Assembly: GCA_029255105.1 (NCBI GenBank)
Contig: JAQWWH010000072.1
Location: forward strand, 1-64,000
Source: Flavimaricola sp.
Lineage (GTDB): Bacteria > Pseudomonadota > Alphaproteobacteria > Rhodobacterales > Rhodobacteraceae
Length of the DNA stretch: 64,000 bases
Direction of reading: 5' to 3'
This document shows, one piece after another, positions 47,001 through 50,495 of the stretch. The first letter of the stretch is position 1; the number at the start of each line of letters is the position of its first letter. A program made the translations under genes and the position numbers. The notes beneath the pieces are model-generated. The model was given only the letters and a program-made list of their open reading frames with translations. It made no database searches and had not been told where the DNA came from.

Positions 47001-47036
47001 ACCCGCCCGGCGCAATCCGGGCGGGTCCTTTCTTTT
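47001..47036 (+). terminator. Intrinsic terminator of thrS
   Basis: A perfect 10-bp stem, ACCCGCCCGG and CCGGGCGGGT, with loop CGCAAT, is followed by CCTTTCTTTT. It lies 24 bp after the thrS stop. Confidence 0.93.
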
Positions 47037-47149
47037 CCGCATCTTGCCGCAGCGCGGCGAACCCGAACCCTTGTGAATTGGGTAACGTATCCTCACGGGG
47101 ACGCGATGCACAGCCCTGTGAGTGGCTTGGCGGAAAGCCGAACCGCTAA

Positions 47150-47201
47150 CCTTTGATCATCACCTGATTGAGGTGACGGCTCAACACTCTGCGATCAAAG
47201 G
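47150..47201 (+). promoter_or_regulatory. bufA leader with inverted repeat over the ribosome binding site
   Basis: CCTTTGATC (47150-47158) is perfectly complementary to GATCAAAGG (47193-47201), which contains the AAAGG ribosome binding site of bufA (ATG at 47209). Nested between them is a smaller hairpin, TCACCT-GATTG-AGGTGA (47160-47176). If the long stem forms, bufA translation would be blocked. Whether it is a real switch is inferred. Confidence 0.6.
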
Positions 47202-47208
47202 AAAACTC

Positions 47209-47511
47209 ATGTCCAACGTCTCCAAGTCCCTCGTCCTTGCCGCCTCTGTCGCCACCGCCATTGCCGGTCTGGCCACCACTGCAGCCGCACAGGACAACGA
47301 AAAGTGCTATGGCATCAGCCTGGCGGGCGAAAATGACTGCGCGGCTGGCCCCGGCACCACCTGCGCCGGCACCTCGACCGTCGACTACCAGGGTAACGCA
47401 TGGACCTTTGTCCCCGCCGGAACCTGCGCCAGCGTGGAAGTGCCCGCGATGGCCGACGGCACCGAGCGTATGGGCTCGCTCGAAGCCCTCGACCGCGACA
47501 TGGCCAGCTAA
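47209..47511 (+). CDS. bufA: Bufferin precursor peptide BufA1 (DUF2282)
   Basis: The precursor of a ribosomally made, post-translationally modified copper-binding peptide (bufferin). The 100 residues have a signal peptide (ending about LATTAAAQ) and a short mature part with four conserved cysteines, Cys33, Cys44, Cys52 and Cys73, in [35 protein letters not shown] and VPAGTC. In the studied Caulobacter bufferins cysteines are converted to thiooxazoles by the BufB/BufC pair and the product acts in the periplasm. The leader upstream is not translated in this frame despite being open. Confidence 0.9.
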
Positions 47512-47519
47512 GGTCTGAC

Positions 47520-47545
47520 GTAAGGTGGGTCTTGACCCACCTTAC
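47520..47545. repeat. Palindromic intergenic repeat, copy 2
   Basis: Arms GTAAGGTGGGTC and GACCCACCTTAC around a central TT, 8 nt after the bufA stop. It is the same element as at 7514 except for the centre. Confidence 0.85.
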
Positions 47546-47583
47546 CCCCCGCCCCCTGCCCCCCCCCGCTGGGCAGAACTGCG

Positions 47584-47609
47584 GTAAAGTGGGTCTTGAC
47601 CCACCTTAC
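47584..47609. repeat. Palindromic intergenic repeat, copy 3
   Basis: Arms GTAAAGTGGGTC and GACCCACCTTAC around TT, with one mismatch, 38 bp after copy 2 and 21 bp before bufB. The spacer between the two copies is almost pure C. The pair would form two hairpins, or one large one, between bufA and bufB. Confidence 0.85.
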
Positions 47610-47630
47610 TGCTGCAAGAAAGTTTCGCCC

Positions 47631-48488
47631 ATGCTCGATGCCAGCCTCCCCGATCCCGGCCTGCCCGCCCGTCCCGGCGTGGGCTACAAGGCCCAGCATT
47701 TCAATGCCTTGCTCTCTGATCCCGGTCCGGCCGCATGGCTCGAGGTCCATGCCGAGAACTACATGGGCGACGGTGGCCGACCTCTGGCCCAGTTGCGCCA
47801 TCTGGCAGAGCGCTTTCCCCTCTCCGTTCATGGCGTCGGCCTGTCCATCGGTGGTGAAGGGCCCCTTGACCCCGATCACCTGGCCCGGCTGCGGCATCTG
47901 GTCGGCTGGCTCAATCCCGCCAGCTTTTCCGAGCATCTGGCCTGGTCCACCCACGACAGCCATTTCCTGAACGATCTTCTGCCCCTGCCCTACACGCAGT
48001 CCACCCTGTCCCGCGTGGCGACCCATATCGACCAGCTGCAAGAGGCGATCGGTCGGCAGATGCTTTTGGAAAACCCGTCCTCCTACCTCGCTTTCGACGA
48101 AAGCGAGCTGACCGAGACCGAGTTTCTGCGCGAGGTCGTCGCCCGCACGGGCTGCGGGCTATTACTCGACGTAAACAACGTCTTCGTCTCAGCCACCAAC
48201 CTCAAGACATCGCCGCGCGCCTATATCGATGCCTTTCCTCTTGAGGCCGTGGGCGAGATCCACCTGGGCGGCCATGACGAAGACAAGGATGACCACGGCG
48301 AGACCTTGCTGATCGACAGCCATGGACGCGAGGTCGTCGATCCGGTCTGGGCGCTATTGGACTACACCCTCGCCAAAAGCGGCCCCAAACCGATCCTGAT
48401 CGAATGGGACAACGACGTGCCAGACTGGCCGATCCTGGCCGCCGAAGCCGACCGCGCCCAGGCGGCCCTCGCCCTGATCCCGTCATGA
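47631..48488 (+). CDS. bufB: Bufferin modification enzyme BufB (DUF692, multinuclear iron)
   Basis: A 285-residue TIM-barrel DUF692 enzyme related to MbnB of methanobactin synthesis; the family uses two or three iron ions to oxidise cysteines of a peptide. Family marks are PGVGYKAQHF, EVHAENYMGDGG, PLSVHGVGLSIGG, FSEHLAW, ENPSSYL, LLLDVNNVFVSATN and EIHLGGH, supplying His, Glu, Asp and Asn ligands. It should act with BufC on BufA cysteines. It overlaps bufC as ATGA. Confidence 0.92.
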   Translation: MLDASLPDPGLPARPGVGYKAQHFNALLSDPGPAAWLEVHAENYMGDGGRPLAQLRHLAERFPLSVHGVGLSIGGEGPLDPDHLARLRHLVGWLNPASFSEHLAWSTHDSHFLNDLLPLPYTQSTLSRVATHIDQLQEAIGRQMLLENPSSYLAFDESELTETEFLREVVARTGCGLLLDVNNVFVSATNLKTSPRAYIDAFPLEAVGEIHLGGHDEDKDDHGETLLIDSHGREVVDPVWALLDYTLAKSGPKPILIEWDNDVPDWPILAAEADRAQAALALIPS

Positions 48489-49219
48489 CCGTTCAACAAG
48501 CCGACTTCACCGCAGCCCTGCTTGACCCCACGCGAGCCGCCCCACCGGGCCTGAGCGATGGTGCCGGGCGGCCCGCTGGAAAGCGTTATGACGTCTATCG
48601 CAACAACGTGGTCGTGGCCCTGTCTGATGCGCTGGAAACCGCCTTTCCGGTGATCCGGAAACTGCTCGGCGACCAGTTTTTCCGCGCCATGGCTGGGGTT
48701 TACGTCAGGGCGCACCCTCCGGCATCTCCCTTGATGATGCACTACGGGGCAGACTTCCCCACCTTCCTCGCAGGCTTTCCCCCTGCGCAGGGCCTGCCCT
48801 ATCTGCCGGACGTGGCACGCGTCGAACTGGCCTTGCGCCGGGCCTATCACGCGGCTGACGCAGCCCCCATTGCGGCCACGGCACTGGCCGAGGTGCCGCC
48901 CGACCGCCTCGGCGACATCCGCCTTTCCTTTGCCCCCGCCGTCAGCCTGATCCCGTCGGACTATCCGATCCACGGCATCTGGACGGCCAACGCCATGGGC
49001 GGGCCAAACCCCAAACCGGTGGCGGAATCCGCCCTTGTCGCTCGGCCCGGCCTTGATCCAAGCCTGAGCCTGATCACCCCCGGAACGCTGCCTGTGCTGA
49101 CCGCGCTAATGTCCGGAGCGACCTTGGGCGATGCGCTTGACCTTGCAGGCGACGGCTTTGACCTGTCCGCCCTCTTGTCCCTCCTCCTGTCCCAAGGCGC
49201 GATCACCGCGCTTAACTGA
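48485..49219 (+). CDS. bufC: Bufferin partner protein BufC (DUF2063)
   Basis: A 244-residue DUF2063 protein, the recognition partner of DUF692 enzymes (MbnC-like). N-terminal marks are RYDVYRNNVVVALSDALETA and FPVIRKLLGDQFFRAMA; the C-terminal half has a winged-helix-like part, so databases often call the N-terminal domain putative DNA-binding. Together with BufB it is expected to bind the BufA leader and modify it. Translationally coupled to bufB and 11 bp before the DoxX gene. Confidence 0.9.
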   Translation: MTVQQADFTAALLDPTRAAPPGLSDGAGRPAGKRYDVYRNNVVVALSDALETAFPVIRKLLGDQFFRAMAGVYVRAHPPASPLMMHYGADFPTFLAGFPPAQGLPYLPDVARVELALRRAYHAADAAPIAATALAEVPPDRLGDIRLSFAPAVSLIPSDYPIHGIWTANAMGGPNPKPVAESALVARPGLDPSLSLITPGTLPVLTALMSGATLGDALDLAGDGFDLSALLSLLLSQGAITALN

Positions 49220-49230
49220 AAGGCCCCGCC

Positions 49231-49770
49231 ATGCTTGCCCCCGTTTTCCGCATCGCAGAGGGCCTTGACCGGGTGTCCGGCCCTGTCCTCAGCACCCTTG
49301 CCCGGGTCATCTTTGCCGCTGTCCTGTTGCGCTACTATTGGGCGTCTGGCCTGACCAAGCTTGGCGACGGGTTGACCGGCATCTTTAGCCCCAGCGTTGG
49401 CGGCTATGCCCAGATCTTTCCCCGCGCGATGGAGGCTGTCGGCTTTAACATCGCGGAAATGAGCTGGTTTCACTGGGGGGTTGTCGTTGCCGGAACGCTG
49501 GCCGAATTCATCCTGCCCCTGCTGATCGTTCTGGGACTTCTGACGCGGCTGGCGGCACTGGGGATGATCGGCTTTGTCGTCATGCAAAGCCTGACCGACA
49601 TCGTTGGGCACGGGGCAGACGCGGCGACCATCGGGGCGTGGTTCGACAGGGCGTCGGGGGCGTTGATCCTGGATCAGCGGGCCTTTTGGGTGCTGGCCCT
49701 GCTGGTGCTGGTGTTCAAGGGGGCCGGGCCGCTGTCGCTGGACCGGCTTTGGTTCAGAAGTGCGCCTTAG
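49231..49770 (+). CDS. DoxX family membrane protein of the bufferin operon
   Basis: A 179-residue membrane protein with four helices and the DoxX start LARVIFAAVLLRYYWASGLTK, plus VVVAGTLAEFILPLLIVLGL. DoxX genes regularly close bufferin operons; function is not settled (possible redox partner or quinone-linked protein). Its last 17 bp overlap the end of a convergent gene. Confidence 0.85.
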   Translation: MLAPVFRIAEGLDRVSGPVLSTLARVIFAAVLLRYYWASGLTKLGDGLTGIFSPSVGGYAQIFPRAMEAVGFNIAEMSWFHWGVVVAGTLAEFILPLLIVLGLLTRLAALGMIGFVVMQSLTDIVGHGADAATIGAWFDRASGALILDQRAFWVLALLVLVFKGAGPLSLDRLWFRSAP

Positions 49771-50119
49771 GCTCGTCCGGTTTGCCGGCGGCGAGGGCCA
49801 GAACGCCGCCAAGACCGGCCATCGCGATGGGGAACATCGTGGCCACGTTAAAGCCAAAGGCAGAATACATCAGCGCCGCTGACACAATCAGGGCAATGCC
49901 GCCCCACAGGGCGCGGACCTTGGCCATCGCGCCGCCCGCAATCGCCAGAATAGGGCCAAGGATCGCGACAGCGCGGATGAATTGCGGATTATCGACGCTA
50001 AAGAACTGGGCCGCTTCGGGGCGGTTTGCCAGCACTTCGGTCCAGCCAAAGCTGACAAGACCCACGATCATGCCGATCAGGCCTGCGATAATGCCAAGGG
50101 TAAGGGCCGCGTTGCGCAT
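49754..50119 (-). CDS. Small four-helix membrane protein
   Basis: A 121-residue protein with four predicted transmembrane helices (ALTLGIIAGLIGMIVGLVSF, FIRAVAILGPILAIAGGAMA, ALWGGIALIVSAALMYSAFG, and a final one). A charged loop with PEAAQFFSVDNP separates helices 1 and 2. I recognise it only as resembling small DUF4064-like membrane proteins. Function unknown. Convergent with DoxX, overlapping by 17 bp. Confidence 0.7.
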   Translation of the reverse strand: MRNAALTLGIIAGLIGMIVGLVSFGWTEVLANRPEAAQFFSVDNPQFIRAVAILGPILAIAGGAMAKVRALWGGIALIVSAALMYSAFGFNVATMFPIAMAGLGGVLALAAGKPDEPKAHF

Positions 50120-50150
50120 TTGAAGTCCTTTTCTGCGGTACCTGTCAGAG

Positions 50151-50495
50151 CTAGTCACCGCCAGCCGGTTTGCCAAGCCATGTGGCCTGGGCATCGGCAG
50201 CCCAGCCTAGGGTCATCTGGCCCCCCTCTTCGATCACCGGGCGCTTCATCAGGGTGGGATGGGCGGCCAGAAGGTCGACGGGATCGGTGGCGCGGTCGGC
50301 CTCGGACAAGGCGCGCCAGGTCGTGGAAGAGCGGTTCACCGCCTTGTCACCAAAGGCCGCCACGATGGCCTCAAGGTCGGCGCGGGCGACACCATCTGCC
50401 CGGACATCGACAACCGTAGGGTCAAGCCCGGCGGCCCGCAGCGCGGACAGCGCTTTGCGACAGGTATCGCATGTCTTTAGACCAATAAACCTCAT
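50151..50495 (-). CDS. ArsC/Spx family reductase-like protein
   Basis: A 114-residue thioredoxin-fold protein with the Cys-x-x-Cys start FIGLKTCDTCRKAL (Cys9, Cys12) as in YffB/Spx-type members. The ArsC-type RPVIEEGG segment is present. Such proteins are usually glutathione- or Spx-like, not true arsenate reductases. A second copy at 51302 is clearly paralogous. Confidence 0.88.
   Translation of the reverse strand: MRFIGLKTCDTCRKALSALRAAGLDPTVVDVRADGVARADLEAIVAAFGDKAVNRSSTTWRALSEADRATDPVDLLAAHPTLMKRPVIEEGGQMTLGWAADAQATWLGKPAGGD

Follow-up and report, generated by a model that had tools for sequence, protein, structure and literature searches.

How is a bufferin operon switched on in a genome that lacks the sigma factor system known to control such operons elsewhere? 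The question is raised by a locus of Flavimaricola sp. that lies within the window, as we call the whole stretch of 64,000 nt of DNA that was analyzed. In Caulobacter, SigF and the anti-sigma factor NrsF govern the expression of the bufferin operons via GTAACC-N16-CGAA promoters (PMC3511200). NrsF is absent from the genome studied here. The operon itself merely extends the list of examples of a copper-protection peptide that is already known, widespread, and common in a major marine family. What is new here is the absence of the metal-sensing sigma switch that usually accompanies it, and the presence of a conserved, putative DNA control site in its place. The promoter region, rather than the peptide, is the part worth following up, and the conserved site offers a direct handle on how bufferins are switched on without sigF-nrsF.

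The operon and its gene products

A complete bufferin operon in the recognized order had been claimed in the preliminary description of this DNA, and all four genes were indeed found, in the standard order and with support from Pfam and NCBIfam models. The Pfam domains DUF2282, MbnB_TglH_ChrH, DUF2063, and DoxX follow each other in gene order, each of them above its curated cut-off; thus, the profile searches that had been suggested as a check (BufA/DUF2282, DUF692, and DUF2063) all gave matches. The genes are located on the plus strand. The first gene, bufA (47209..47511), encodes the bufferin precursor of 100 aa (PF10048, 85.7 bits versus a cut-off of 22.4; 2.1e-24). It is followed by bufB (47631..48488), which was assigned by NF050167, PF05114, and its ligand positions and encodes a multinuclear non-heme iron enzyme (MNIO), the bufferin maturase. 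The gene for the BufB partner, bufC (48485..49219), encodes DUF2063 and a C-terminal domain (PF09836, 97.2 bits, 7e-28), and its start overlaps the end of bufB by 4 bp (ATGA). The last gene of the operon (49231..49770) encodes a DoxX-family membrane protein (PF07681, 28.5 bits versus a cut-off of 23.6). The DUF2282 and DUF692 genes of the operon are the only ones in the assembly, which is 92.6% complete. Judged by sequence, bufA-bufB-bufC-DoxX has all the genes of a type-1 bufferin operon and is a conventional member of this previously described class.

Upstream of the operon lies a probable intrinsic terminator of thrS (47003..47038, plus strand), which consists of a GC-rich hairpin, with a 10-bp stem on folding, and a subsequent T-rich run. 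At the downstream end, the minus strand of the window from 49754 to 50495 encodes two proteins, a small membrane protein that matches no Pfam model and one that is ArsC/Spx-like. The same arrangement is common among 80 loci that were fetched by BufA similarity and that belong to the Rhodobacteraceae as far as the record titles tell: the small membrane protein adjoins the operon in 52 of the 80, and the ArsC/Spx-like protein in 68. BufB and BufC adjoin BufA in 79 of these loci, DoxX is present in 77, and thrS lies upstream in 76. The closest named relative in this set is Flavimaricola marinus, with 83% BufA identity. In a survey of 198 Rhodobacteraceae genomes, each of a different genus, DUF2282 was present in 140. 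The bufferin locus is a long-standing resident and not an acquired cluster. At one other locus (L106:5352-6742), transposase-like genes lie directly 3' of bufA and bufBC-DoxX was not found within 5 kb; apparently, this bufA is an orphan precursor.

The four cysteines claimed for BufA, Cys33, Cys44, Cys52, and Cys73, are all present. By reading, the N-terminus has a basic start, a hydrophobic stretch, and an Ala-rich end ahead of Cys33, which by eye makes about residues 1–27 a probable Sec signal peptide. The spacing C-x10-C-x7-C-x20-C is identical in 108 of 109 BufA relatives, the sole exception having an extra cysteine. A further locus (L076) was missed by the search pattern, but on reading its BufA agrees with the others in the four cysteines and in their spacing. 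At the level of sequence, the spacing is thus a constant of the family. The spacing had earlier been proposed as a possible determinant of which cysteines undergo modification; it was not supported as a distinguishing feature, because the spacing is common to nearly all relatives and the modified pair has already been published (PMC12452194). In bufferins, the two central cysteines are converted to thiooxazoles and the outer two form a disulfide (PMC12452194). The 5-thiooxazoles are installed by pairs of an MNIO and a DUF2063 protein (PMC13097082), and the bufferin signal peptide serves as the leader for the modification, according to work cited in PMC13419390. Two variants of the precursor were seen in other genomes: a BufA in which an additional, fifth cysteine lies two residues past the third (TTCACTS; L078:5001-5294), and a tandem bufA pair, that is, two DUF2282 matches 340–440 bp apart, at L029 and on contig C45 of genome G100.

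BufB scored 345.8 bits against PF05114 and passed the NCBIfam equivalog NF050167 MNIO_BufB (bufferin maturase) with 373 bits at a cut-off of 310; the HvfB model of NCBIfam gave 234 bits and its cut-off of 360 was not reached. In TglH, the iron ligands are His71, His107, Glu151, Asp184, His216, and Glu258, and the third iron site is formed by Asp184, Asn187, Asp229, and His231 (PMC10880893). In the alignment, these residues map to H67, H102, E147, D180, H211, E258, N183, D229, and H231 of BufB, and the nine positions are invariant in 28 of 28 related BufB sequences. The lack of iron ligands in BufB had been named beforehand as an observation that would speak against the bufferin interpretation; all nine are kept. 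The best PDB matches of the BufB AlphaFold model (pLDDT 84.7) are the DUF692 structures 3bww (5e-20), TglH (8hci), and MbnB (7fc0). The AlphaFold model of BufC (pLDDT 93) has two domains and matches TglI (8hci_A) and NGO1945 (3dee); its predicted fold is of the DUF2063 plus RRE partner type. The two models corroborated the claim of an MbnB-like enzyme with its partner. Sequence searches with BufA and with BufC against the PDB yielded nothing relevant. BufC did not reach the cut-off of the NCBIfam HvfC model, and the match of DoxX to an HvfX-type model was likewise below the cut-off, so that neither protein is called by these models.

The hairpin between bufA and bufB

The region between bufA and bufB contains two copies of a palindrome, both given here for the plus strand. 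Copy 1, GTAAGGTGGGTCTTGACCCACCTTAC (47520..47545), is perfect, and copy 2 (47584..47609) differs from it by one base. The GTAAGGTGGGTCTTGACCCACCTTAC palindromes form a dispersed repeat family with about 80 near-identical sites throughout the genome (at ≤3 mismatches, 81 matches in forward and 83 in reverse orientation, the near-equal counts reflecting that a palindrome matches on both strands). With so many sites, the hairpins between bufA and bufB might be mere insertions of the repeat that have no function here. However, a strong hairpin (below −15 kcal/mol) is found after bufA in 77 of 81 loci, and only 20 of the loci with such a hairpin carry the GTAAGGTGGGTCTTGACCCACCTTAC family. Thus, it is the structure and not the sequence that is conserved, and we regard functionless insertion as rather unlikely. 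The structure has been kept while the sequence was replaced.

The post-bufA hairpin is significant against shuffled sequences (z below −2) in 68 loci. The hairpin of the window has a folding energy of −20.9 kcal/mol and a z of just −1.4 against its own shuffles, because the gap between bufA and bufB is very GC-rich. In the window, no T-run follows the hairpin, and thus it is probably not a terminator there. Its likeliest role would be in RNA stabilization or processing, with the result that bufA message is more abundant than bufBC message.

The twin box and the SigF-NrsF switch

Upstream of bufA, a 29-bp twin box, TCACGGGGACGCGATGCACAGCCCTGTGA (47093..47121, plus strand), is a candidate regulator-binding site composed of a pair of imperfect 14-bp palindromes, spaced 15 bp apart. 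Its consensus is TnACG-n4-YGYGA-nn-CACG-n4-YGTGA, and in most relatives it is located about 90–140 bp upstream of the bufA start codon. With a scoring pattern that was derived from the 80-locus set itself, at least 15 of the 19 consensus positions were matched in 73 of 81 loci, compared with a score of about 11 for shuffled sequence. The pattern occurs once in this genome at ≤2 mismatches. Across the 198 family genomes, 54 distinct box sites were found at ≤1 mismatch and none with the reversed pattern as a control; 47 of the 54 are at bufA, 181–340 bp from the DUF2282 domain. The seven sites away from bufA showed no obvious gene in common, and several of them are inside coding frames; the notion of a twin-box regulon was rejected on these grounds. 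Among the conserved neighbors, that is, thrS, the small membrane protein, and the ArsC-like protein, none is a regulator.

A candidate −10 element of the buf promoter, TAACCT (47147..47152, plus strand), was deduced from an aligned TAnnnT, whose positions T54, A55, and T59, numbered from the start of the box, are enriched in the relatives. The box lies just upstream of this element, a placement that would fit the binding site of an activator or of a repressor. Further downstream, the bufA leader of the window contains a short stem (ATCACC...GGTGA, 47156-47178), and similar stems with changed bases are present in many relatives. A conserved leader stem was rejected as a candidate, given that RNAalifold yielded no consensus structure for the relatives and that the number of stems was just moderately above that of shuffles.

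The box could instead be part of the core promoter or of the leader RNA and be kept for the needs of transcription or translation. This reading agrees with its position next to the conserved TAnnnT and with the weakly supported leader stem. However, the 29 bp of the box, 8 positions of which are invariant, lie upstream of the −10 element and are more than a core promoter would account for, and the box is nearly restricted to bufA and almost never occurs together with linked SigF-NrsF. In addition, perfect complementarity is not maintained within its two units, since T or C is found at position 11 opposite an invariant A, and this imperfect pairing speaks against an RNA hairpin. A pure core-promoter or leader function is therefore clearly improbable in our judgment, and we infer from the sequences that the twin box is probably a regulator site.

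The relation of the box to SigF-NrsF was seen in three views. Linked sigF-nrsF is present in 3 of the 80 loci (L064, L083, and L097), all of which are devoid of the box and two of which have a SigF-type promoter. Among 30 further family loci, the box was found in 1 of 9 with a linked sigma factor, as a partial box, versus 18 of 21 without one (Fisher 2e-4, a value that overstates independence because the loci share descent; the 80- and 30-locus sets may also share species). At the level of genomes, the box was present at bufA in 0 of 23 with both bufA and NrsF versus 47 of 117 in which bufA occurs but NrsF is lacking (Fisher 5e-5, likewise overstated because the genomes are related by descent). 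The three views are in agreement. They are most naturally read as the replacement of SigF-NrsF at the bufferin operon by another, putative regulator. Taken together, the twin box and the post-bufA hairpin suggest a replaced metal switch and expression of the precursor in excess of the enzyme. We lean slightly towards the more general view that in most Rhodobacteraceae the bufferin operon was released from SigF-NrsF in favor of a dedicated metal-responsive regulator on the twin 15-bp box, a site that is nearly absent from the rest of these genomes, and that the conserved hairpin sets the ratio of precursor to enzyme.

Proposed mechanism and comparison with known systems

The best explanation for the whole locus, to which we assign a probability of roughly 0.85, is a type-1 bufferin that is modified by BufBC and binds copper in the periplasm, with a twin-box promoter and a dosage set by the hairpin. 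It builds on the gene content and order, the conservation of the iron ligands, the folds, the box with its exclusion of SigF-NrsF, and the hairpin, all observed here, and takes the chemistry, the export, and the copper role from the literature. Transcription would start from a promoter under a putative regulator at the twin box (47093-47121), not under SigF-NrsF, and the hairpin just after bufA would hold the precursor transcript above the enzyme transcript. In the cytoplasm, the BufB-BufC complex would recognize BufA through its signal peptide, and the di-iron enzyme BufB would oxidize the central Cys44 and Cys52 to 5-thiooxazoles. The modified BufA would then be exported by Sec, the outer Cys33 and Cys73 would form a disulfide, and the peptide would bind excess copper in the periplasm, with the assistance of DoxX.

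Homology would assign thiooxazole formation and copper binding to BufA and copper induction to the operon, and copper is the presumed inducing signal. Conceivably, the bufferin is made but mainly targets, or is mainly induced by, a metal other than copper, such as cadmium, chromate, gold, or zinc: in Caulobacter, dichromate and cadmium induce the two DUF2282 operons via SigF (PMC3511200), and MerC-bufferin fusions point to other metals in some lineages (PMC12452194). However, the published role of Buf1 bufferins is copper buffering (PMC12452194), and the dichromate and cadmium tolerance of the Caulobacter mutants was unchanged (PMC3511200), which makes another metal very doubtful.

Related systems share some features with the operon and differ from it in others. 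Oxazolin/HvfABC(X) of Haemophilus influenzae and the EGKCG-repeat captophorins (fontiphorin and bulbicupramide) share with it the pair of MNIO and DUF2063 protein and a cysteine-rich precursor, along with Sec export, which is probable here, and the 5-thiooxazole chemistry (PMC13097082), which is predicted here. However, their precursors consist of EGKCG repeats, whereas the precursor here is a DUF2282 protein, and BufB stays below the HvfB cut-off (234 vs 360). The methanobactin system MbnABC and the pearlin system TglHI have the enzyme fold and the iron ligands in common with BufB, but they lack a DUF2282 precursor and make different products, and their precursors have typical leader peptides rather than Sec signal peptides (PMC12452194).

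The closest counterpart is the Buf1 operon of Caulobacter vibrioides (CC3254-CC3257), which shares the gene content and order DUF2282/DUF692/DUF2063/DoxX, the four cysteines, and, as a probable feature here, the signal peptide. In C. vibrioides, sigF-nrsF is adjacent and the promoter is of the SigF type, whereas the present operon has the twin box in a genome without NrsF; the post-bufA hairpin is a further feature that sets it against Buf1. With neither NrsF nor a conserved SigF promoter, the operon falls outside the SigF-NrsF-controlled subset. A SigF-type promoter in the window, for which GTAACG-N16-CGAT at 47082-47107 resembles the Caulobacter consensus (PMC3511200), was rejected as highly improbable, since the match is loose, has no counterpart at the corresponding position of close relatives, overlaps the twin box, occurs in a genome devoid of NrsF, and is likely due to chance, the pattern having 2 genome-wide matches versus 11 for the reversed control. 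The situation may differ in another member of the family (L012, genome G135), whose bufA locus has neither the box nor a linked sigF and whose NrsF gene is located on another contig; unlinked SigF control is possible there.
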